Shown: positions 10,871-20,200 of the stretch, piece after piece
How positions within the stretch are numbered: the first letter of the stretch is position 1
Layout of the letters: every line of letters begins with the position of its first letter
IMG/VR virus record: IMGVR_UViG_3300010413_000214
Span: 1-20,316 of that record
Length of the DNA stretch: 20,316 bases
DNA from: a virus
Reading direction: 5' to 3' (one strand)
The notes under the pieces: model-generated
What the model was told of the DNA's origin: nothing
The model's input: the letters and a program-made list of their open reading frames with translations, nothing else
Database searches by the model: none
Program-made: the position numbers and the translations under genes

Positions 10871-12469
10871 ATGGGCGCCGAGGCGGAGGCACGCGAGCAC
10901 GATGAAGAGTTCGCGTTCCTACCGTGGCAGTGGCGCTGGTACGACGACCGCTCGGCCGTCAAGGTCTTCGAAAAATCGCGGCAGCTTGGCATCACGTGGG
11001 TGACCGCGTGCGAGGCTGTCGAGGTAGCGTCGACGCCGAAAGAAGACGGCGGGTCTGACGTGTGGTTCATGACCACGAGCCAGGACGACGCGCGGGAGTT
11101 CATCAGCGACTGCGCCGGGTGGATCGAGACGCTCTCGGACGCGATGGACGCGAACCCGGAGATAGACGAGTACGACTGGATCGAGCCTGACGATCGCGAG
11201 GCGGTGCTGACGTTTCGGATCACGTTCCCGTCCGGGTTTGCGATCCATGCCTTACCCTCGAGGCCCGCACGTCTGCGCGGCAAGAAGGGGTACGCGATCT
11301 GTGACGAGGCGGCGCACCAAGATCTCGACGCGTGGCTCAAAGCCTCGGGTGCCCTGCGGATCTGGGGCGGCCGTCGAGCGATCATCTCGACGCACCACGG
11401 GACTGACAGCGGTTTCTATCGGTACGTGCAGCGAGTCAAAGCGAGCATCGCGGACGGTAAGCCGATGGCCAGCCTGCACTCGGTGTTTCTCGACGAAGCG
11501 CTGGAGTTGGGTCTGTACCGGCGGATCTGTCGGATGGCGCGGCCTCAGATCCGCTGGTCGCGTGAGCGCGAGTTGGAGTGGATCGAGGAGCTCCGCATCG
11601 AATACGGCGACGGCTTTGACGAGGAGTGTCGCGGCATCGTCACCGGCGCGAGTAACCAACTGATCGCCCGACAGTTGATCACGGCCGCGCAGACGATGAC
11701 GGAGACCGAGTGCCAGATCGTCGAGTTCCGCGGTGGCGAGTCTCCGCGGATGTGGATCAACGGTGACCAGGTCGAGGTCGCCGACAAGCCTTGGCCACTG
11801 CCGTCGGACCAGGACGCGAACATCAGCTCACCGGAGGATCGTGAGGCGCTCGTCCGGCGATGGCTCGATCAACACTTGGCCGCTCCGCTGATGGCGATCA
11901 ACGGCCTTGGCCTCGACGTGCACGTGGGCGACGACTACGGCCGCAGCGGAGATCTCTCGACCAAGATCATCGGCACGAACGATCGGAACAACCGCCGCGC
12001 GGTCAGGCTCGTGATCGAGTGCGAGCGGGTCCCATGGACGGTGCAGTCGCAGATCGCCGACTACTGCTGGGCGATCCTGACGCGGCTCCGATCTGGCTCC
12101 GGCGACGGCAACGGCAACGGCAGCCACAACGCCGAGCGAGCCAAGGAGCGGACCCGCGGGAAGATGTCAGTCACCATGCGCTTGCCAGACGGTGCCTTCA
12201 CTCGGCTTCGCACGCGCCTCGAGGAGGGAACGATCAAGCTCCCGCGGCACGGCCGGGACATCGCCGACGACATCGCGTCGATCAAGCGCAAGTCCAACGG
12301 CGTCGAAGCGCCGCGCCGCAGGACCGCACGCGGGCAGCAGCGACACGCCGACGCCGCCTATGCGCTTGCGCATTTCGAGCACTCCATTGATACTGACGGC
12401 CAGGTGGTCGTGCCGATCAAGAGTGCTAGGCGAACCGGCCGATCACTGTGGCCACGGGGGCGACGATGA
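10871..12469 (+). CDS. terL: Large terminase subunit, Mu gp28-like, 532 aa
   Basis: This is the packaging motor ATPase and nuclease. Residues 17-43 (LPWQWRWYDDRSAVKVFEKS and RQLGITW) are the adenine-binding and deviant Walker A region typical of Mu-like terminases, with Lys35 before SRQ. Walker B is YAICDEA (Asp145, catalytic Glu146), and the coupling motif is IISTHHG (171-177). The C-terminal nuclease-like region includes GLDVHVGDDYGRSGDLSTK and a final HADAAYALAHFEH. All expected parts are present and the length is usual. It overlaps the portal gene by ATGA, in the normal terminase-portal order. A shorter disabled copy lies at 15450-16196. No small subunit was recognised. Confidence 0.9.
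   Translation: MGAEAEAREHDEEFAFLPWQWRWYDDRSAVKVFEKSRQLGITWVTACEAVEVASTPKEDGGSDVWFMTTSQDDAREFISDCAGWIETLSDAMDANPEIDEYDWIEPDDREAVLTFRITFPSGFAIHALPSRPARLRGKKGYAICDEAAHQDLDAWLKASGALRIWGGRRAIISTHHGTDSGFYRYVQRVKASIADGKPMASLHSVFLDEALELGLYRRICRMARPQIRWSRERELEWIEELRIEYGDGFDEECRGIVTGASNQLIARQLITAAQTMTETECQIVEFRGGESPRMWINGDQVEVADKPWPLPSDQDANISSPEDREALVRRWLDQHLAAPLMAINGLGLDVHVGDDYGRSGDLSTKIIGTNDRNNRRAVRLVIECERVPWTVQSQIADYCWAILTRLRSGSGDGNGNGSHNAERAKERTRGKMSVTMRLPDGAFTRLRTRLEEGTIKLPRHGRDIADDIASIKRKSNGVEAPRRRTARGQQRHADAAYALAHFEHSIDTDGQVVVPIKSARRTGRSLWPRGRR
11378..11487 (+). repeat. Copy 1 of DNA patch shared with the second terminase-like gene
   Basis: Bases 11378-11400 are identical to 15921-15943 (23 of 23), and 11414-11487 match 15954-16027 at 72 of 74 positions. 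The rest of the two genes is clearly more diverged, including at synonymous sites. Confidence 0.85.
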
Positions 12470-14805
12470 GCAAGGCGAAGCGAGCAAGCGGGCGGACGAG
12501 CGCGAGGGCCAAGGCTACGCCGAGGAAATCGAAGGCGATCGCCAAGAAGGACTCAGCCCCGGCGAAGGGGAGCAAGTCAAAGGCGACTCGGACCGACGGA
12601 CACATGGCCGGGATCTCCGAGATTGCCCGCGTGTTGCGAGGCGATTTCCCCGTCGGTCTGCCGGGGTGGATGTCCGGGGAGGCTGCATGGGCCTACTACA
12701 TCCAAAACGGCGTGGTGCGCCAGATGATCGGGCGCTTCGCCATGCTCATGACCTCGCCCGGTCACGGCTACACCCACAGCGACGTGCGGGACTTCGACTG
12801 GTCACCGACGATCTCGATGCTCGATGAGAAGCGCCTGCGCCAGGCCTGCCGCTCCGCAGCAACGTGGGCCTTTGTGTTCGGCGCCGGGATCATCGAGCAC
12901 GTCGTCGAGGACGCCTTCCGCGGAAACGAGCCGCTCGATCTGGACAACGTCCACGCCTACAAGGGCGTCAACATCCACACCGCGTGGAGCCTGCGACCCG
13001 AGGACAGCGCGGACTGGAAAACCGCGGAGTGGTTCGTCACGCGAACGCATCCGCAGCGCCGGATCCACCGATCGAGGCTGACGATCATGGTGGCCACCGA
13101 CACGCCGGCCGGTGTCATCACGACGCGGACGACGGGATGGCCGCCGTCGTGGATGGAAGGGATTTATCAAGCATTCAACGAGTGGACGCGGATCGAGTGC
13201 GACGTGTCGGCGATCGTTCGAACGCTGTCGGTGTTGCACCTCCAACTGGAAGGCTGGGCCCTCGCGGCAGGCAACACCGACAGTGTGGAGGCCGACGGTG
13301 TGCGGGCACGGATCGCCCAGGCTCTCGAAGGCCTGAACGCCGACGGGATGCTCGTCACCGACACGAAGGATCGGCTCGGCGAGGTCTCGCGCAACATTTC
13401 AGGCCTCGACAAGTTGATCGAGCGCAAGGCCCTCCGCGCCGCGGCGAGCAGCGGCGTCCCGAAGGAGTTGCTGCTAATGGAGGCCGAGGGAAACCTTGGA
13501 CTCAACAGCGCCCCGATCGACGCCTACATCGATCTCGTCGCCGGGTGGATGGACCAGATGGTCGTGCCGGCGATCACTGATGCGACCGACATCTCGCTCG
13601 CGGTGCAGCGCTACCGGGCATCCCTGGTCGGCGAGACGCTGATCGTGCCGTCGCAATTCATGGTGGTCATGGATCCGATCCAACAGGCCACCGGCAAGGA
13701 GCGGGCGGAGGAACGCAAGGCCAACGCCGACGCGCGAGCAGCCGACGCGACCAAGACCGGGATCCCGATCGAGGTCATCCTGCAAGATCCTACGCTGCGC
13801 GACGACTACCCGGGGATTGACGCGTTTCTCGACGACAAGGCGGCGCGCGAGCAAGCGGCCCGAGAGAAGACGGCCGCGGCTGGTCTCGACAATCCCGAGG
13901 GCGAGGACATGGTCAGCGCGGCCCAGGCCGCGAAGGCGTTCGGGATCAGCGGCGGCACGTTGATCAAGTACGCCAAGGCCGGCAAGGTCCGCGGCCAACA
14001 GATCGCCGGCCGCTGGCGCTTCTACCTCTCGCAGGTGCGCGAGGCCTTGACCGGCAAGACCCCGGCCGAGATCGAGCAAGCAGCGGATCGGCGACTCGAC
14101 GACATCGGTCTGTCCGAGTCCACGCGGTTCGGGGACGCATGGGGCGAGTCTGATGCGATGCGAGAGATCTTCGCCGTGCTCGAACGGGTGCGAGACACCG
14201 ATCTCTCGGTGCTGCTGCTTGGCGAGACCGGCACCGGCAAGGAGGGCATCGCCCGCGGTCTCCACGTCGGTGACGGCCCGTTCGTGGCGATCAATTGCGC
14301 GGAGGTGAGCGACGACGGGCAGGCAGCGGCGAAGCAACTGCGCAACGCACTCGCATCGGCGGCAGGCGGGACTCTGTTCCTGGACGAGGTCGGCGATCTG
14401 TGGAGCGATGCCCAGTCGGCGATCCTGCGCCTGCTCGCGTCGCCCCACGACGCCCGGATCGTGTCGGCGACCTCGCGGCCGGCGGACTACTTGCGCGCCG
14501 ATCTGTTCTACCGACTGGCCGACGTGCTGATCGAAGTGCCACCGTTGCGAGACCGTGAGCGCGACGTGATCGAGATCGCGACGGGGATTTACGAGTCCTA
14601 CACGAGCGAGCGTGGCTACCCGGCCGCGGAGCCTCCGTTCGCTGACTCCGCGATCGCAGCGATGCTGCTCTACCAGTGGCCGGGCAACATCCGCGAACTG
14701 AAGTCGGCGGTGAGCCGCGGCGTCGAGTTGGCCCAGCGTGGCGAGTCGGTCGGGGCCGAGCACATGCAGCTGAGCATGCGAGAGAGCGGCGGTGTGAAGC
14801 GATGA
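12466..14805 (+). CDS. Portal protein (DUF1073-type) fused to HTH and NtrC-type AAA+ ATPase, 779 aa
   Basis: ATG 12466 overlaps the terminase stop (ATGA). Residues 1-45 are a Lys/Ala-rich basic tail. Residues ~45-440 fit the DUF1073-type portal: an IHRSRLTIM segment, a WMEGIYQAFNEWTRIECDVS helix, SRNISGLDKLIERKALRAAA, SSGVPKELLLMEAEG and NLGLNSAPIDAYIDLVAGWM. After a charged linker comes an excisionase/MerR-like HTH (~482-528: VSAAQAAKAFGISGGTLIKY, RGQQIAGRWRFYLSQV). Residues ~555-760 are an NtrC-family AAA+ domain: Walker A GETGTGKE (586-593, Lys592), PFVAINCAE (605-613), Walker B TLFLDE (Asp640-Glu641), sensor I with ATSRP (668-672), arginine fingers Arg677 and Arg683, PPLRDRERDV, sensor II WPGNIREL (738-745). 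The GAFTGA loop is absent and no C-terminal Fis HTH follows. The portal role is well supported; the fusion's role is unknown. Confidence 0.85.
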   Translation: MSKAKRASGRTSARAKATPRKSKAIAKKDSAPAKGSKSKATRTDGHMAGISEIARVLRGDFPVGLPGWMSGEAAWAYYIQNGVVRQMIGRFAMLMTSPGHGYTHSDVRDFDWSPTISMLDEKRLRQACRSAATWAFVFGAGIIEHVVEDAFRGNEPLDLDNVHAYKGVNIHTAWSLRPEDSADWKTAEWFVTRTHPQRRIHRSRLTIMVATDTPAGVITTRTTGWPPSWMEGIYQAFNEWTRIECDVSAIVRTLSVLHLQLEGWALAAGNTDSVEADGVRARIAQALEGLNADGMLVTDTKDRLGEVSRNISGLDKLIERKALRAAASSGVPKELLLMEAEGNLGLNSAPIDAYIDLVAGWMDQMVVPAITDATDISLAVQRYRASLVGETLIVPSQFMVVMDPIQQATGKERAEERKANADARAADATKTGIPIEVILQDPTLRDDYPGIDAFLDDKAAREQAAREKTAAAGLDNPEGEDMVSAAQAAKAFGISGGTLIKYAKAGKVRGQQIAGRWRFYLSQVREALTGKTPAEIEQAADRRLDDIGLSESTRFGDAWGESDAMREIFAVLERVRDTDLSVLLLGETGTGKEGIARGLHVGDGPFVAINCAEVSDDGQAAAKQLRNALASAAGGTLFLDEVGDLWSDAQSAILRLLASPHDARIVSATSRPADYLRADLFYRLADVLIEVPPLRDRERDVIEIATGIYESYTSERGYPAAEPPFADSAIAAMLLYQWPGNIRELKSAVSRGVELAQRGESVGAEHMQLSMRESGGVKR
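13897..13901 (+). promoter_or_regulatory. Candidate internal ribosome binding site for a free HTH-AAA+ protein
   Basis: GAGGG lies seven bases before the in-frame ATG 13909, which falls exactly between the portal linker and the HTH domain. Confidence 0.4.
13909..14805 (+). CDS. Possible free HTH-AAA+ regulator nested in the portal gene, 298 aa
   Basis: If translation starts at ATG 13909 the product is a complete two-domain protein: an N-terminal excisionase/MerR-like HTH starting at its second residue and the whole NtrC-type AAA+ domain. The start sits at the domain boundary and has a Shine-Dalgarno-like GAGGG at good spacing. HTH plus AAA+ suggests DNA binding with ATP-driven remodelling, but without GAFTGA it should not open sigma-54 promoters in the usual way. 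It could be made in addition to the 779-residue fusion. The start is inferred and GA-rich codons alone may mimic the site. Confidence 0.4.
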   Translation: MVSAAQAAKAFGISGGTLIKYAKAGKVRGQQIAGRWRFYLSQVREALTGKTPAEIEQAADRRLDDIGLSESTRFGDAWGESDAMREIFAVLERVRDTDLSVLLLGETGTGKEGIARGLHVGDGPFVAINCAEVSDDGQAAAKQLRNALASAAGGTLFLDEVGDLWSDAQSAILRLLASPHDARIVSATSRPADYLRADLFYRLADVLIEVPPLRDRERDVIEIATGIYESYTSERGYPAAEPPFADSAIAAMLLYQWPGNIRELKSAVSRGVELAQRGESVGAEHMQLSMRESGGVKR

Positions 14806-15160: not shown

Positions 15161-15453
15161 CACGAGTGAGTGATCAAGGGCGCAGGTTCCCGATCATTGC
15201 TCCGCGCGACACGAAGGGGCGACCCACCGACGGATGCCCAACGTCCGTCCCGTGGTCGTTTGTCGGGTGCCACGAAGCGCAGGCGTGGGCGAACCATGGT
15301 CAGACGCTTGAGCGGTTGGCCGAGCGAGGCGGCCTAGCGCCGTGTGAGTTGCACGCAGTCGTGCACGGTAGGCGGTGGCGATCGATGCCGATCGGTGAAC
15401 TTGTGACTTGGCTTGCAGAGGTCGTCGGCCCCGCACGGGATGACGGATCATGA
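15157..15453 (+). CDS. Small conserved phage protein, 98 aa
   Basis: ATG 15157 and the stop both make ATGA overlaps with neighbours. The core TDGCPTSVPWSFVGCHEAQA followed by NHGQTLERLAERGGL is a pattern I recall from small proteins in many phage genomes, with no known role. His/Cys residues (GC, CHE, NHG) might bind a metal but there is no clear motif. It belongs to the insert between portal and protease. Confidence 0.65.
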   Translation: MTRVSDQGRRFPIIAPRDTKGRPTDGCPTSVPWSFVGCHEAQAWANHGQTLERLAERGGLAPCELHAVVHGRRWRSMPIGELVTWLAEVVGPARDDGS

Positions 15454-16196
15454 CGATCGATGATGCGCAGCGCGACGCTCACTGGTATCATGTGCACATG
15501 GACACAGTTCTCCTCCCCTACCAACAGGAATGGATCGCTGACCGGTCACCGGTCAAGGTGTTTGAGCAGTCTCGAAAGATTGGCATCACGTGGGCGACCG
15601 CGTGCGAGGCGGTCGATGTCGCATCGCTGCCAAGCGCCGACGGCGGCTCCGACGTGTGGATGATGACCGGAACCCTGGACGACGCACGCGAGTTCATCTC
15701 CGACTGTGCATGGTGGATCGGTACGCGCATGATCGACCGCGAGTCGATCATGGACTACAAGATCGAATTCCCGTCTGGGTACGCCATCCATGCGATGCCG
15801 TCGAGGCCATCGTGCATGCGCGGCAAGACGGGGTATGCGATCTGTGACAGCGCGGCATTCCAGGATCTTGACGCGTGGATGAAGGCGTCGGCTGGCCTGA
15901 AAATGCAGGGCGGGCGGTTGGCGATCATCTCGACGCACCACGGTGACAGTGGGTTCTATCGGTACGTGCAGCGAGTCAAGGCGAGCATCGCCGACGGTAA
16001 GCCGATGGCCAGCCTGCACTCGGTGTTCATGAGTGACGCCATACAGCAGGGATTGTACCGCCGGATCTGCCAGGTTTCGCGTCCTCAGATCCCGTGGACG
16101 CAGGAGGGCGAATCGGCATGGATCGACGGCCTTCGTGAAGCATACGGCGACGCATACGGCGAGGAGTGCTGCGGCGTCGTTTCTCTCGCGTGCTGA
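15450..16196 (+). CDS. Truncated, catalytically altered second terminase ATPase, 248 aa
   Basis: It aligns along its length with residues ~17-247 of the large terminase at 10871 but lacks ~17 residues in the middle and stops before the nuclease domain (ends GEECCGVVSLAC where the full copy continues). The adenine motif LPYQQEWIADRSPVKVF and coupling motif IISTHHG are kept. The Walker A-like KSRQLGITW is QSRKIGITW here (Lys to Gln40), and Walker B CDEAA is CDSAA (catalytic Glu to Ser134). ATP hydrolysis is therefore unlikely. ATG 15450 is coupled to the preceding gene (ATGA); ATG 15498 is a possible later start. It may regulate or mimic the motor, or be a relic of recombination. The open frame argues against simple decay. 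Confidence 0.8.
   Translation: MTIDDAQRDAHWYHVHMDTVLLPYQQEWIADRSPVKVFEQSRKIGITWATACEAVDVASLPSADGGSDVWMMTGTLDDAREFISDCAWWIGTRMIDRESIMDYKIEFPSGYAIHAMPSRPSCMRGKTGYAICDSAAFQDLDAWMKASAGLKMQGGRLAIISTHHGDSGFYRYVQRVKASIADGKPMASLHSVFMSDAIQQGLYRRICQVSRPQIPWTQEGESAWIDGLREAYGDAYGEECCGVVSLAC
15921..16027 (+). repeat. Copy 2 of DNA patch shared with the large terminase gene
   Basis: See copy 1 at 11378-11487. Between the two blocks, copy 2 lacks one codon (HHGDSG against HHGTDSG). The high local identity points to recent recombination or gene conversion. Confidence 0.85.
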
Positions 16197-16209: not shown

Positions 16210-16887
16210 ATGACGATCGGCGACCGACTCCGGCGCGAGCGCACGCGGGCAGGGCTGACGCAAGTCGACCTTGCAAGCCGTCTAGGTGTCTCATCCGAAT
16301 ACGTGTGCCGCGTCGAGCATGGGATCCGCCGTCCATCGCGTGTGCTCGTTGACCGCTGGGCCATCGCCGTCGGAGCCGGTCCAGCCGATCTCGTGCTCGA
16401 CGGTCCGGCGCTGTTCGACGTGACCTTCGCTGTCGAGGCCGGCGAGATCGATCCGTTCACGGCGCGGTCCGTGCTCGGGCACTTGCCGATCCACATCAGG
16501 CGCCTGGCATCCGTGTGGCCGACGATCGACAGCCAGGCGATCAGGCTCCGTGCTCGAGGCTCCGCGCTGCCGTCGGTGATCGGCCTTGTCGGGACCGATG
16601 TCTCCGGGGTCGGGATCCTCGGAGCGCCGGTCGTCAAGCCGGTCGAGGCCGCGGCGGAGTTGATCGCGTGGGTTCGTGCTGCGAGCGAGGACGATGCACG
16701 GGCAGAGGTCGAGCGCCGTCTGGTGCGGGCCGCAGCGAGCGGACGCGTGTCGGTCCATGCAGCCGGGCGCCTATTTGTGGCGAGCGTCGTCGAGTTGGCC
16801 GCCGATGCATCCATGCGCTTGCAGGAATTGGTGGACGGTTCGCCGCTCGGGTTGTTCGTTCCTACGCCCGAGCCTGACGCGGTATAG
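16210..16887 (+). CDS. XRE/Cro-family HTH regulator, 225 aa
   Basis: ATG 16210 follows AAAGGA (16202-16207). Residues ~4-57 are a classic XRE helix-turn-helix (IGDRLRRERTRAGLTQVDLA then SRLGVSSEYVCRVEHG), so it binds DNA, probably as a dimer. The remaining ~165 residues are helical (DPFTARSVLGHLPIHIRRLA; VEAAAELIAWVRAASEDDA) with no LexA/CI-type protease Ser-Lys dyad that I can see, so RecA-driven self-cleavage is unlikely. It sits between the structural gene blocks rather than at a lysogeny switch, and a palindrome follows 20 bases downstream of its stop. It may control the downstream head operon or itself. Function is inferred from the domain. Confidence 0.8.
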   Translation: MTIGDRLRRERTRAGLTQVDLASRLGVSSEYVCRVEHGIRRPSRVLVDRWAIAVGAGPADLVLDGPALFDVTFAVEAGEIDPFTARSVLGHLPIHIRRLASVWPTIDSQAIRLRARGSALPSVIGLVGTDVSGVGILGAPVVKPVEAAAELIAWVRAASEDDARAEVERRLVRAAASGRVSVHAAGRLFVASVVELAADASMRLQELVDGSPLGLFVPTPEPDAV

Positions 16888-16972: not shown

Positions 16973-17122
16973 ATGGGCGTGGATACTGCCCAGCCGCCGG
17001 TCAAGCCGGTTCAGCCGGACGAGCGTGACCCGAAGCCGAAACCGGCCTCGGCGAAGCCCGATCGGCCGACCACGGACGAGCGGCCCCCAGACGACACCAA
17101 GCCCGTCGTGAGGTTCGGATGA
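16973..17122 (+). CDS. Small proline/lysine-rich protein, 49 aa
   Basis: ATG 16973 opens a 49-codon frame ending in an ATGA overlap with the prohead protease gene. The composition is unusual: nearly one quarter proline, with many Asp/Lys/Arg (VKPVQPDERDPKPKPASAKP). It is almost certainly disordered. It is the first gene after the operator-like palindrome and may be a leader or an early head-assembly accessory. No family recognised. Confidence 0.5.
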   Translation: MGVDTAQPPVKPVQPDERDPKPKPASAKPDRPTTDERPPDDTKPVVRFG

Positions 17123-19383
17123 CCGACGCCGTCGACACAGCGCCGCGATCGGACGCCTTCGCCGTCACCGTGGACGACACGATCGACGTGCGCGAGGGCG
17201 AGTGGGACGGCGCTCGCGGCGAGCGTGAGATCTTCGACTGGGCAACCGGCGATGACGGCGAGGTCGACTGGACCAAGGCGTCCAAGGGCTTCGGCGTCGC
17301 GGACCTGAACCCGCCCGCTGGCGAGAGCATCACCCGCGCGTCGTTCAAGTTGGCGATCGCCTACGTCGAAGGCGACAAGTTGATCGGGATCGGCAACGCG
17401 ATCCGCAATGCGCTCGCACGGCTGCCGCAGACTGAGGGCCTCTCGGATGCGGTGCGCGACGAGGTCCAGGGCAAGCTGGAGGGGATGCTAACGCGCCTGA
17501 ACGAGCAGACTGCCGACGCGCTGGCTGGCCACTTCTCCATTTCGGTCGATGACGCTCGCGCTGTGGTCGACTCGATCAGCGAGCGCCTGCTCGCGCTCCG
17601 CGACGTGGAGCGCAGCGAGGAAGAGCAAGCCGAGATCCGCGAGGAGTTCCCGCGCTTGATCAACGGCACCCCATCGCAAATGCGAGAGTGGGCCGAGTCG
17701 CCATACTCCGGCGAGAACCGCAAGGAAGGCGAGGCCCGCGTGAGCGCCCGCGATGCGCTGCGCCGCGTGATCGCGCTGAAGGAAAAGCCCATGTCTGACT
17801 GGACGGAGGGCGACTACGACGACGCGGTCAAGGCGATCGCGTTCGTCAAGCGCATGTCCGAGGTCGAGCAGGGCGACCCGATCGTGATCGAGGGGCGCGA
17901 GGGTCCGAGCGAGCGCGACGCGTCGCTGCGAGACTGGGGACACTGGACCTCCGACGATCTGGACGCGCTGGCCGGTCACTTCGTGATGACGGTCGGAGAC
18001 TCGACCGACCGCGTCTACCGGACCTGCACCATGGATTTCTCGCTCGACGCTCAGGCGCGGGTCGCCGTCGATCGAGCACTGGCCATCGCCGACGAGATCG
18101 GCCCGCGCACCGACGCGGCGCAGGTCAAGGCGATCGCCGAGCAACTCCGCGCCGACGGATTCGCCGACTCGGTCTCGTCCGACGGTCTGCTGATCGTCAC
18201 CGGCTACGCCGCGCGCACCGGCTCGCAACTCTACGGCGACGGCAAGTCGACGTGGTACGAGTACCGCAGCGAGGCCGAAGTCGAAAAGAGCCTCGCGTCC
18301 TACGATTACAAGACGTTCACCGATGATCACCCGCCGGTGCTGGTGACCTCCGACAACTGGCGAGAGTACGCCCGCGGGATGCTTGGCACCGGCGCAGAGT
18401 TGCTGCCGCCGGAGGATGACGGGCACCGCTACGTCAAGGTCAAGATCGTCATCGGCGACGTGGGCACGCTCCGCAAGATTCGGGACGGCCGTCACCAACT
18501 GTCGGCCGGCTACACCACGATCGCCGTGCGCGACCCGGGCGTCGACGCTCACGGCGTCAAGTACACCTATCGCCAGACCGACATCCAGATCAACCACCTG
18601 GCGCGTGTGGATGAGGGCCGCGCTGGCCCGCGTGCGCGTGTGCAGATCGACGGCGCCCAGCCAGTTTTCGAAGTCAACGAGGAGACCACCATGGCAACCC
18701 CCACCAACGATCAGATGACCCCCGAAGCGGCCGACGCCCTGCTCGACGCGATCAATGCGTTCGCGGGGGCCGACAGCCCCGAAGCGTCCGAGGCCGCGAT
18801 GATGGCGATCGCAACCGCGACCGGCATCGAGCCGGGCATGGTCAAGCAGCGCCTCGGCGGCGGCGAGATGATGGAGATGGACGGCGTCCAATTCATCGTG
18901 AGCAAGGACGCCGCGGCCAAGATCCGCGAGCACCAACGACGGATCACCGGCGACGCTGCGAAGATCGCCAACGATCTGGCGACTGCGCAGGGGCAACTCG
19001 TCGCGCTCAGCCGCACGGTCGACACCCTGCAAGCAGCCAAGGCCGAGGCCGACATGCGTGATCTCGAGCGGGAGATTTCCCCCTTGTGCCCGCAGTTGAC
19101 CAAGACGTGGACCGGCGACGCCCGACCCAAGTCTCTGACGGCGATGCGCGTCGCAGCGATCCTCGACCTCGACACGGCCGCCAAGGTCGACCTCGACAAG
19201 GCGATTGGCGACCCGACCGCACCCGCGCCAACCTACGACGCGTTCGTCGAGTCGCTGTATAGCGCGACCAAGCGGCACGCCGCGGCCCGCCAACGGGCCT
19301 CGGTCAACGACGGCGCGCCGTCGCTCCCCATTCCCAAGATCGACACCAGCGGCATCTACGGCAGCCGCGGCACCGCCAACTGA
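17119..19383 (+). CDS. DUF2213-type prohead protease with N-terminal extension and C-terminal scaffold, 754 aa
   Basis: Residues ~350-512 resemble DUF2213 phage head proteins, thought to be prohead proteases: DGLLIVTGYAARTG (355-368), TFTDDHPPV (399-407), RHQLSAGY (458-465) and INHLARVDEGRAGPRARV (491-508). His404, Ser462 and His493 are candidate catalytic residues by analogy with capsid proteases; this is inference. The first ~345 residues are an extension with a KASKGFGVADLNPP/ASFKLAIAYVEGDKLIGIGN unit, a second unit (PSQMREWAESPYSG, ARVSARDALRRVIALKEKPM) and a repeated DALAGHF (133-139, 282-288). From Met525 a coiled-coil-rich part (IREHQRRITGDAAKIANDLA) looks like a scaffold. Order protease-scaffold-decoration-capsid is standard for head modules. 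Confidence 0.8.
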   Translation: MTDAVDTAPRSDAFAVTVDDTIDVREGEWDGARGEREIFDWATGDDGEVDWTKASKGFGVADLNPPAGESITRASFKLAIAYVEGDKLIGIGNAIRNALARLPQTEGLSDAVRDEVQGKLEGMLTRLNEQTADALAGHFSISVDDARAVVDSISERLLALRDVERSEEEQAEIREEFPRLINGTPSQMREWAESPYSGENRKEGEARVSARDALRRVIALKEKPMSDWTEGDYDDAVKAIAFVKRMSEVEQGDPIVIEGREGPSERDASLRDWGHWTSDDLDALAGHFVMTVGDSTDRVYRTCTMDFSLDAQARVAVDRALAIADEIGPRTDAAQVKAIAEQLRADGFADSVSSDGLLIVTGYAARTGSQLYGDGKSTWYEYRSEAEVEKSLASYDYKTFTDDHPPVLVTSDNWREYARGMLGTGAELLPPEDDGHRYVKVKIVIGDVGTLRKIRDGRHQLSAGYTTIAVRDPGVDAHGVKYTYRQTDIQINHLARVDEGRAGPRARVQIDGAQPVFEVNEETTMATPTNDQMTPEAADALLDAINAFAGADSPEASEAAMMAIATATGIEPGMVKQRLGGGEMMEMDGVQFIVSKDAAAKIREHQRRITGDAAKIANDLATAQGQLVALSRTVDTLQAAKAEADMRDLEREISPLCPQLTKTWTGDARPKSLTAMRVAAILDLDTAAKVDLDKAIGDPTAPAPTYDAFVESLYSATKRHAAARQRASVNDGAPSLPIPKIDTSGIYGSRGTAN
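18680..18684 (+). promoter_or_regulatory. Internal ribosome binding site for the nested scaffold
   Basis: AGGAG lies six bases before the in-frame ATG 18691, at the boundary between the protease and scaffold parts. Strength and spacing are as good as at ordinary starts in this window. Confidence 0.6.
18691..19383 (+). CDS. Nested scaffold protein, in-frame internal start, 230 aa
   Basis: Starting at ATG 18691 the product (MATPTNDQMTPEAADALLDA at the start) equals the last 230 residues of the protease fusion. It is acidic at first, then a long helix with coiled-coil character, then a compact C-terminal tail (LPIPKIDTSGIYG) that could bind the capsid protein. A protease gene with an in-frame scaffold gene at its 3' end is the well-known lambda C/Nu3 arrangement. 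The strong Shine-Dalgarno and the exact domain boundary support it; both long and short products are expected. Confidence 0.6.
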   Translation: MATPTNDQMTPEAADALLDAINAFAGADSPEASEAAMMAIATATGIEPGMVKQRLGGGEMMEMDGVQFIVSKDAAAKIREHQRRITGDAAKIANDLATAQGQLVALSRTVDTLQAAKAEADMRDLEREISPLCPQLTKTWTGDARPKSLTAMRVAAILDLDTAAKVDLDKAIGDPTAPAPTYDAFVESLYSATKRHAAARQRASVNDGAPSLPIPKIDTSGIYGSRGTAN

Positions 19384-19396
19384 AAGGCTCACGACC

Positions 19397-20200
19397 ATGT
19401 CTCTCGCACAAACCGTCGCCCCCATGCGGGGCCAGGATCTCAACCGCAACCACGGTGACGTTCGCTCGCGAGTGTGGCCGGGGCATCCCACTACGTGGAC
19501 CGTCGCGCTGACTGGCGTCTATGCCGACGGGACCTACAGCTTCGACTTCGTCGGCCCGGTCTCGACCACGACCGTCTCCGTCGCGGTGGTCGGGTCAAGC
19601 TTCGCCGGCGTCATCGTCGAGTTGCGAGACGCGGCCGATGGCCTCGACGTGGTCTTTGCCGTGGCTGAGAGTTCGGCGAGCGGCGCGACCCTGACCATGG
19701 CGGCGCGCAACCTCGATCAGTCGTTCTCGCTGGCCACACCCGTGGCACCCGGCGGCGTCACCATGACGCTGACCGACGTGACCGGGGCCCTGACCCCGCT
19801 GCGCCCCGGCCTCGCGGTCTCGCTCGACGACGACGGCAACCTGCGCCGGCTCAAGACTGGTGACACCGCTGCGCTCGTTCTCGGCGTGTCGCAGATCAAC
19901 GAGGAACTGGACAGCGCCACCGGAGCCGTCGGCGAGGTGGCCCAGTGGTCCGAGGGTTCGATGGTCACCGTCCGCTGCCAAGGCGAGATCCTGGTGCCCG
20001 TCGAGGAGGCCGTCACCACGCTCGACGCGGCGGTCTGGGTTCGCATCAACGCCCCGGGCTCGCAGGAGGTCGGCGCGTTCCGTGTCACCGACGCGGGCGG
20101 CGGAAACAGCATCCAACTCACCAACGCTCGCTGGACGGGCAAGTCCTTTACCGGCGGCGACGGAACCCCGACCGCCTACGTCTTGATCAACCAGCCGTGA
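19397..20200 (+). CDS. Head decoration / structural cement-like protein, 267 aa
   Basis: AAAGG shortly before ATG 19397 supports the start. The first ~115 residues are a beta-rich domain (VWPGHPTTWTVALTGVYADG, TYSFDFVGPVSTTTVSVAVV). The rest resembles phage structural cement proteins: RPGLAVSLDDDGNLRRLKTG, VLGVSQ, WSEGSMVTVRCQGEILVPVE, AAVWVRINAPGSQEVGAFRV and a final VLINQP. This protein probably stabilises the capsid shell from the outside. Its place between scaffold and capsid genes fits. The N-terminal domain may be an added decoration module. Confidence 0.75.
   Translation: MSLAQTVAPMRGQDLNRNHGDVRSRVWPGHPTTWTVALTGVYADGTYSFDFVGPVSTTTVSVAVVGSSFAGVIVELRDAADGLDVVFAVAESSASGATLTMAARNLDQSFSLATPVAPGGVTMTLTDVTGALTPLRPGLAVSLDDDGNLRRLKTGDTAALVLGVSQINEELDSATGAVGEVAQWSEGSMVTVRCQGEILVPVEEAVTTLDAAVWVRINAPGSQEVGAFRVTDAGGGNSIQLTNARWTGKSFTGGDGTPTAYVLINQP

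Follow-up and report, generated by a model that had tools for sequence, protein, structure and literature searches.

The window, that is, the whole stretch of DNA analysed here, is an entire IMG/VR record of 20,316 bases, and its most unusual gene encodes a phage portal continued by a helix-turn-helix (HTH) domain and an AAA+ ATPase domain. This fusion gene (12466..14805, plus strand, as are all features below) runs through 779 aa with zero internal stops and has 12 homologous fusions; an alternative GTG start lies at 12448, 18 bases upstream. From the N-terminus, the chain consists of a basic, Lys/Arg/Ala/Ser-rich tail with a net charge of +13 (residues 1-45; 12466..12600), a portal domain (residues 76-423; 12691..13734), the junction GLDNPEGEDMV (residues 473-483; 13882..13914), an HTH_17/excisionase-like winged helix (residues 484-529; 13915..14052), an NtrC-type AAA+ core that lacks both the GAFTGA (L1) loop and the pre-sensor I hairpin (residues 560-694; 14143..14547), and an AAA+ lid of the AAA_lid_14 type (residues 695-774; 14548..14787). 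The core contains Walker A (GETGTGKE, residues 586-593; 14221..14244), Walker B (FLDE, residues 638-641; 14377..14388) and the arginine fingers R677 and R683 (14494..14514), and the lid carries sensor II (GNIREL, with R743). The portal tails of the window's clade have net charges of +11 to +14 and a histone H1-like look, those of other lineages being shorter and less basic.

Domain assignment and neighbouring genes

Pfam searches matched Phage_portal_3 to the fusion at 4e-27 (95 bits against a cut-off of 33.8), spanning profile positions 5-354 of 357, and all five homologous fusions that were scanned also passed this cut-off. In the C-terminal part, Sigma54_activat was matched at residues 560-684 (4e-19) and AAA_lid_14 at residues 695-774 (2e-11). 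HTH_17, at residues 484-529, is under the cut-off in the window copy (3e-4); four homologues score between 3e-8 and 7e-6, and L139, L135 and L045 exceed the cut-off. The HTH carries a net charge of +3 to +9 in every one of the 13 members despite acidic flanking stretches. PHROGs returned a portal (9e-29), an AAA+ family of unknown function (6e-21) and an excisionase-type HTH (9e-7). By profile, then, the product is both a member of the Phage_portal_3 family and a member of the NtrC-clade AAA+ group, and the sequence suggests that the HTH would bind DNA and the AAA+ part would act as an ATPase. A preliminary description, made by reading the DNA alone, had already proposed a portal, an HTH and an NtrC-type AAA+ in one stop-free frame, which the open reading frame and the Pfam matches bear out. 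It had also placed Walker A (G586-E593), Walker B (D640-E641), R677/R683 and sensor II with R743 correctly, while overlooking that the sigma-54 loops are absent.

The start codon of the fusion gene is overlapped by the stop of a Mu gp28-like large terminase (TerL; 10871..12469), which is approximately 31% identical to that of Mu. Mu head genes share this type of terminase but differ in that the fusion portal matches Phage_portal_3, not the family of the Mu portal, and in that no MuF domain was found in the scanned genes next to the fusion. Downstream, an XRE-type HTH protein (16210..16887; 225 aa), conserved in its C-terminal part, occupies the place that MuF has in phage E217, and is followed by a DUF2213 head maturation protease with an N-terminal extension of approximately 350 aa (17119..19383) and by a cement protein of the E217 gp24/Pam3 gp6 type (19397..20200). 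The gene order of the family is TerL-fusion-DUF2213-cement-MCP. The XRE gene adjoins the fusion in the window's lineage and in L045/L134, L135 and L033/L138, and was not found beside it in L032/L034/L039/L040 or L139.

Two further observations concern these neighbours. The extension of the DUF2213 protease (17119-18168) weakly matches DUF3140 (1e-5); in the protease of E217, DUF2213 lies at the very N-terminus. Between the fusion and XRE genes of the window, positions 15450-16196 encode a second, truncated terminase large subunit of 248 aa. It shares 63% identity with the N-terminal half of the TerL of the window, has a deletion of 17 aa and reads CDSAAF in place of the Walker B-like CDEAAH; no such copy was seen in related contigs, which have another small gene (L009:10675-11073) ahead of the XRE gene.

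Homologous fusions and their inheritance

When the portal half and the HTH-AAA+ half were searched separately, both retrieved the same contigs (L002, L003, L004, L005 and L006), in which the portal is 61-70% and the HTH-AAA+ part 74-76% identical to the window. DNA patterns for the Walker A region and for the portal motif GWPPSW retrieved more distant fusions (L032, L033, L034, L039 and L045), and a profile scan added L135 and L139. The set, assembled from the matches listed, contains at least 13 distinct full sequences including the window, in five lineages, with identities to the window of 38-72%. The preliminary description had suggested looking for further DUF1073-AAA+ fusions in viral metagenomes, and this search yielded 12 more distinct IMG/VR sequences. 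All genuine portals retrieved by the GWPPSW pattern bear the HTH-AAA+ part, the remaining pattern matches being short portal-less frames, and no unfused portal of the window type occurs among the confirmed ones. Outside viral metagenomes, none of the records among 50,697 phage genomes covered 80% of the fusion protein; two scans of cellular genomes gave no fusion among the matches listed, the second returning stand-alone activators; and 379 Myxococcota genomes contained distant portal matches only, the best being an ordinary unfused portal of 464 aa (L207).

An assembly artefact, a frameshift read-through or a chance match might be suspected, given that the window is one metagenomic contig and that HTH_17 falls under its cut-off in the window copy. 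However, the same junction is present in the twelve other distinct sequences, some homologues have HTH_17 above the cut-off, and purifying selection extends over the whole frame. Because the architecture is identical in 12 other distinct sequences, misassembly and chance are excluded, and we assign an artefactual origin next to no probability.

When the 13 fusion AAA+ domains were placed in a tree together with 64 stand-alone activators, drawn from bacterial genomes and viral contigs, they grouped as one clade (100/100 support), and the supported nodes are congruent between the portal tree and the HTH-AAA+ tree. The monophyly of the AAA+ domains and the agreement between the two trees therefore indicate a single origin and inheritance as a unit. 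Between lineages, identity to the window is 47-58% for the AAA+ part versus 31-48% for the portal, and AAA+ dN/dS ranges from 0.10 to 0.33 across six pairs, showing that the AAA+ part is under purifying selection. Overall, sequence comparison shows a fusion that is real, old and conserved. The ATPase had been described as captured onto the portal; this was no one-off capture, since the module arose once, long ago, and has been inherited vertically together with the portal.

In each of the six pairs, synonymous divergence of the AAA+ part (window positions 13915-14802) is below that of the portal part, for example 0.32 versus 0.66 between L002 and L004, which could be due to recombination or to a constraint at the DNA level.

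Two candidate features of the junction were rejected. An ATG at residue 482, preceded by GAGGG, could start translation of the HTH-AAA+ part as a separate protein, but it is not conserved (CTG in L003, other residues further out) and was discarded as a general route. A conserved protease site was not found either, the stretch GLDNPEGED being identical across six close members and variable outside the nearest lineages. The most divergent linker is that of L139 (10097-12595, plus strand), which has approximately 80 extra residues between HTH and AAA+, with a THNMIAHPLM motif.

An NtrC-type ATPase without the sigma-54 loops

The P-loop lysine and glycines, the Walker B DE, both arginine fingers and the sensor II arginine R743 are invariant in 13/13 fusions. 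In contrast, every one of the 13 has a deletion of the GAFTGA loop, and L033 alone retains the pre-sensor I hairpin (L2), which is deleted in the other 12, the window included. As a control, we examined 146 stand-alone relatives taken from the matches listed in the scans: L1 is full-length in 146/146, the spacing between Walker A and Walker B is 63-75 aa in all of them versus 48-58 aa in the 13 fusions, and a GAFTGA-like expression occurs in 140/146 versus none of the fusions. The C-terminal Fis-type DNA-binding domain is absent as well, as the fusion chain stops after the lid and its HTH_17-like HTH precedes the AAA+ part. NtrC1, FlrC, FleQ and PspF thus share with the fusion the AAA+ core, lid, Walker motifs, arginine fingers and sensor II, but possess GAFTGA and the hairpin, and the HTH of the NtrC family is C-terminal and Fis-type, whereas that of the fusion is excisionase-like, N-terminal of the AAA+ part and tethered to a portal.

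Both the GAFTGA loop and the pre-sensor I hairpin serve to engage sigma-54 (PMC2745333; PMC12421884), and their loss is therefore a strong argument against ordinary sigma-54 activation. Intact ATPase residues, and best profile and fold matches that are NtrC-family activators, would be consistent with a sigma-54 enhancer-binding protein captured onto the portal and activating host sigma-54 promoters. Nevertheless, given deletions that none of the listed relatives has in L1, we consider this highly unlikely, and we do not class the fusion as an enhancer-binding protein because the defining loops were tested and are missing. The preliminary description had put an enhancer-binding-protein ATPase on the portal: the assignment to the NtrC clade holds, and the action on sigma-54 does not. 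The ATPase must serve a purpose other than sigma-54 switching, probably inside the capsid. It is a clear example of an NtrC-type ATPase re-purposed through deletion of both loops, and L033, which has lost GAFTGA but not the hairpin, is an intermediate that can still be seen.

NtrC regulators without GAFTGA do exist. Caulobacter NtrC has an NtrC-type AAA+ of this kind, but it stands alone as a response regulator and works at sigma-70 promoters (PMC12421884). By analogy, unassembled portal-HTH-AAA+ protein might bind phage or host promoters late in infection, independently of sigma-54, and the second HTH protein (XRE) adjoining the fusion gene in most lineages would fit such regulation. Yet the XRE gene was not found in two groups that have the fusion, and regulation offers no reason for the lasting attachment to the portal in all members, so that we regard this explanation as unlikely.

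The portal fold and its C-terminal slot

The structure model used here was built with 13 sequences (mean pLDDT 68.8, pTM 0.40) and replaced an earlier six-sequence model (pLDDT 45.5). In this predicted model, residues ~57-474 (12634-13887) match the portals of E217, Pa193, Pam3 and T1 (Foldseek/VIA), although the portal part is of moderate quality, with an rmsd to solved portals of >14 Å at full length. Specifically, the match to the E217 portal covers E217 residues 99-528 and ends at model residue 474, and model residues ~553-775 match NtrC-family AAA+ structures with Z of ~20-23.

The C-terminal barrel of the E217 portal points into the head (PMC10329688), residues 529-765 of the Pa193 portal are without density (PMC11042391), and residues 635-753 of E217 gp19 match InPase (3e-43, Pfam). 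The HTH-AAA+ part begins at residue 474, where the structural match to E217 stops, and the E217 InPase sits after the corresponding place. Since the E217 barrel points into the head with InPase beyond it, the end of the barrel would be an enzyme slot, here filled by HTH-AAA+, and by this homology the HTH-AAA+ units are likely to lie at the capsid-side end of the portal. The fusion thereby supports a view of the barrel end of portals as a slot whose enzyme varies from phage to phage.

The closest known counterpart is gp19 of Pbunavirus (E217, Pa193; PDB 8FVH, 9B41), which likewise is a Phage_portal_3 portal with a C-terminal barrel and then an enzymatic extension, has a similar total length (765 aa) and belongs to contractile-tailed phages. 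E217 also shares the gene order portal - X - DUF2213 - cement - MCP. The differences are that its extension is InPase (PF18823) rather than HTH-AAA+, and that a MuF gene follows its portal, where the fusion phages have XRE or neither.

Portals with C-terminal enzymes are known (Iyer 2017, PMC5512222; PMC9503650), and these enzymes include PBECR, the 2H/Acb1 type and InPase. These cases, together with the E217 InPase, substantiate the earlier statement that portals of the DUF1073 type carry C-terminal modules; the portal-Acb1 link mentioned with it would fit the 2H fusions and one BFVD portal-like model labelled Acb1-like. In the accessible text of Iyer 2017, portal chains ending in effector-like enzymes resemble the present fusion, but none has an HTH or AAA+ domain; such enzymes are usually interpreted there as injected effectors, and 2H, PBECR and similar modules also occur on MuF and polyvalent proteins, whereas the HTH-AAA+ module was seen, among the matches listed, on the fusion portal only. 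No portal with an HTH or AAA+ domain was found in the open-licence papers searched, and the earlier remark that such an architecture was undescribed agrees with those papers and with the 50,697 phage genomes. A portal with a capsid-side enzymatic tail was thus already known; the HTH-AAA+ module on a portal is one that we found described nowhere.

Possible roles of the HTH-AAA+ module

Portals are usually regarded as passive channels and sensors. The explanation to which we give an even chance is a dodecameric portal of the E217/Pam3 kind whose capsid-side slot holds a winged helix and an AAA+ domain as a nucleotide-switched DNA-binding module in the head. Up to twelve HTH-AAA+ units would be placed at the end of the portal barrel, within the head, where the AAA+ part might act as a nucleotide-dependent oligomerisation switch, not a sigma-54 remodeller, and control the grip of the HTHs on DNA at the portal's inner mouth. 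That a loop-less AAA+ can serve as such an oligomer switch is suggested by analogy. A virion outside the cell has no ATP supply; therefore, an uncut fusion could use ATP only in the producing cell, and an injected role would require release. If the portal stays uncut, ATP would be available only before lysis and the module would act in assembly and packaging; if the linker is cut by the DUF2213 protease, which is a possible processing enzyme for it, the HTH-AAA+ piece could instead be delivered into the next host and act there at an early stage.

This second course would make the module an injected effector. Once the head protease has cut the linker during maturation, the free HTH-AAA+ piece would be packaged, leave with the DNA and act in the new host, where ATP is present; it might target promoters, a defence system or the nucleoprotein of phage or host. 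We consider this possible though not probable. It is in line with the effector-like PBECR, 2H and InPase of the portal superfamily, read as injected in PMC5512222 and PMC9503650, with InPase in the same slot of E217 gp19, with a DUF2213 protease downstream in every lineage, and with linkers that are variable and flexible-looking. On the other hand, the junction has no cleavage motif conserved across lineages, the loop-less AAA+ is absent on MuF, alone or on other carriers among 80 viral and 80 genome matches listed, and the module was never exchanged within the family. Injection remains a strong rival to the portal-coupled role, to which we give slightly more weight because the loop-less module is found only on the fusion portal, unexchanged, among the matches listed. 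Counting against the portal-coupled role, the head-side position rests on E217/Pa193 homology, the assembly and injected roles are inseparable by sequence evidence, and we found no direct precedent for a hexamer-forming AAA+ on a dodecamer.

A bolder form of the portal-coupled role, which we hold to be doubtful, is that the portal has a nucleotide-driven ring of its own within the head: with their DNA-binding domains, twelve tethered AAA+ units would constitute a second ATP-dependent device, lying at the capsid side of the packaging channel and serving as a clamp, an end-sensor or a motor together with the terminase outside. A portal that permanently bears an apparently active AAA+ and a DNA-binding domain, long retained within one phage group, would either bring ATP-dependent activity to the inner face of the vertex or point to a new kind of DNA-binding machine delivered by the virion.

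Phage type and related contigs

One long related contig encodes a tail sheath, a tape measure, a baseplate hub, an integrase and a DnaB-type helicase. The sheath, tape measure and baseplate hub identify contractile-tailed phages, and from the gene content at least one phage of the family is perhaps temperate. An 80.8 kb contig encodes a second AAA+ protein (L010:2889-3989, plus strand) with clamp-loader-like PHROG matches and a weak match to the fusion profile, approximately 2-3 kb upstream of the terminase. A 97.5 kb related contig encodes a 658-aa FHA-domain protein (L022:7994-9967, plus strand), which is unusual for a phage.
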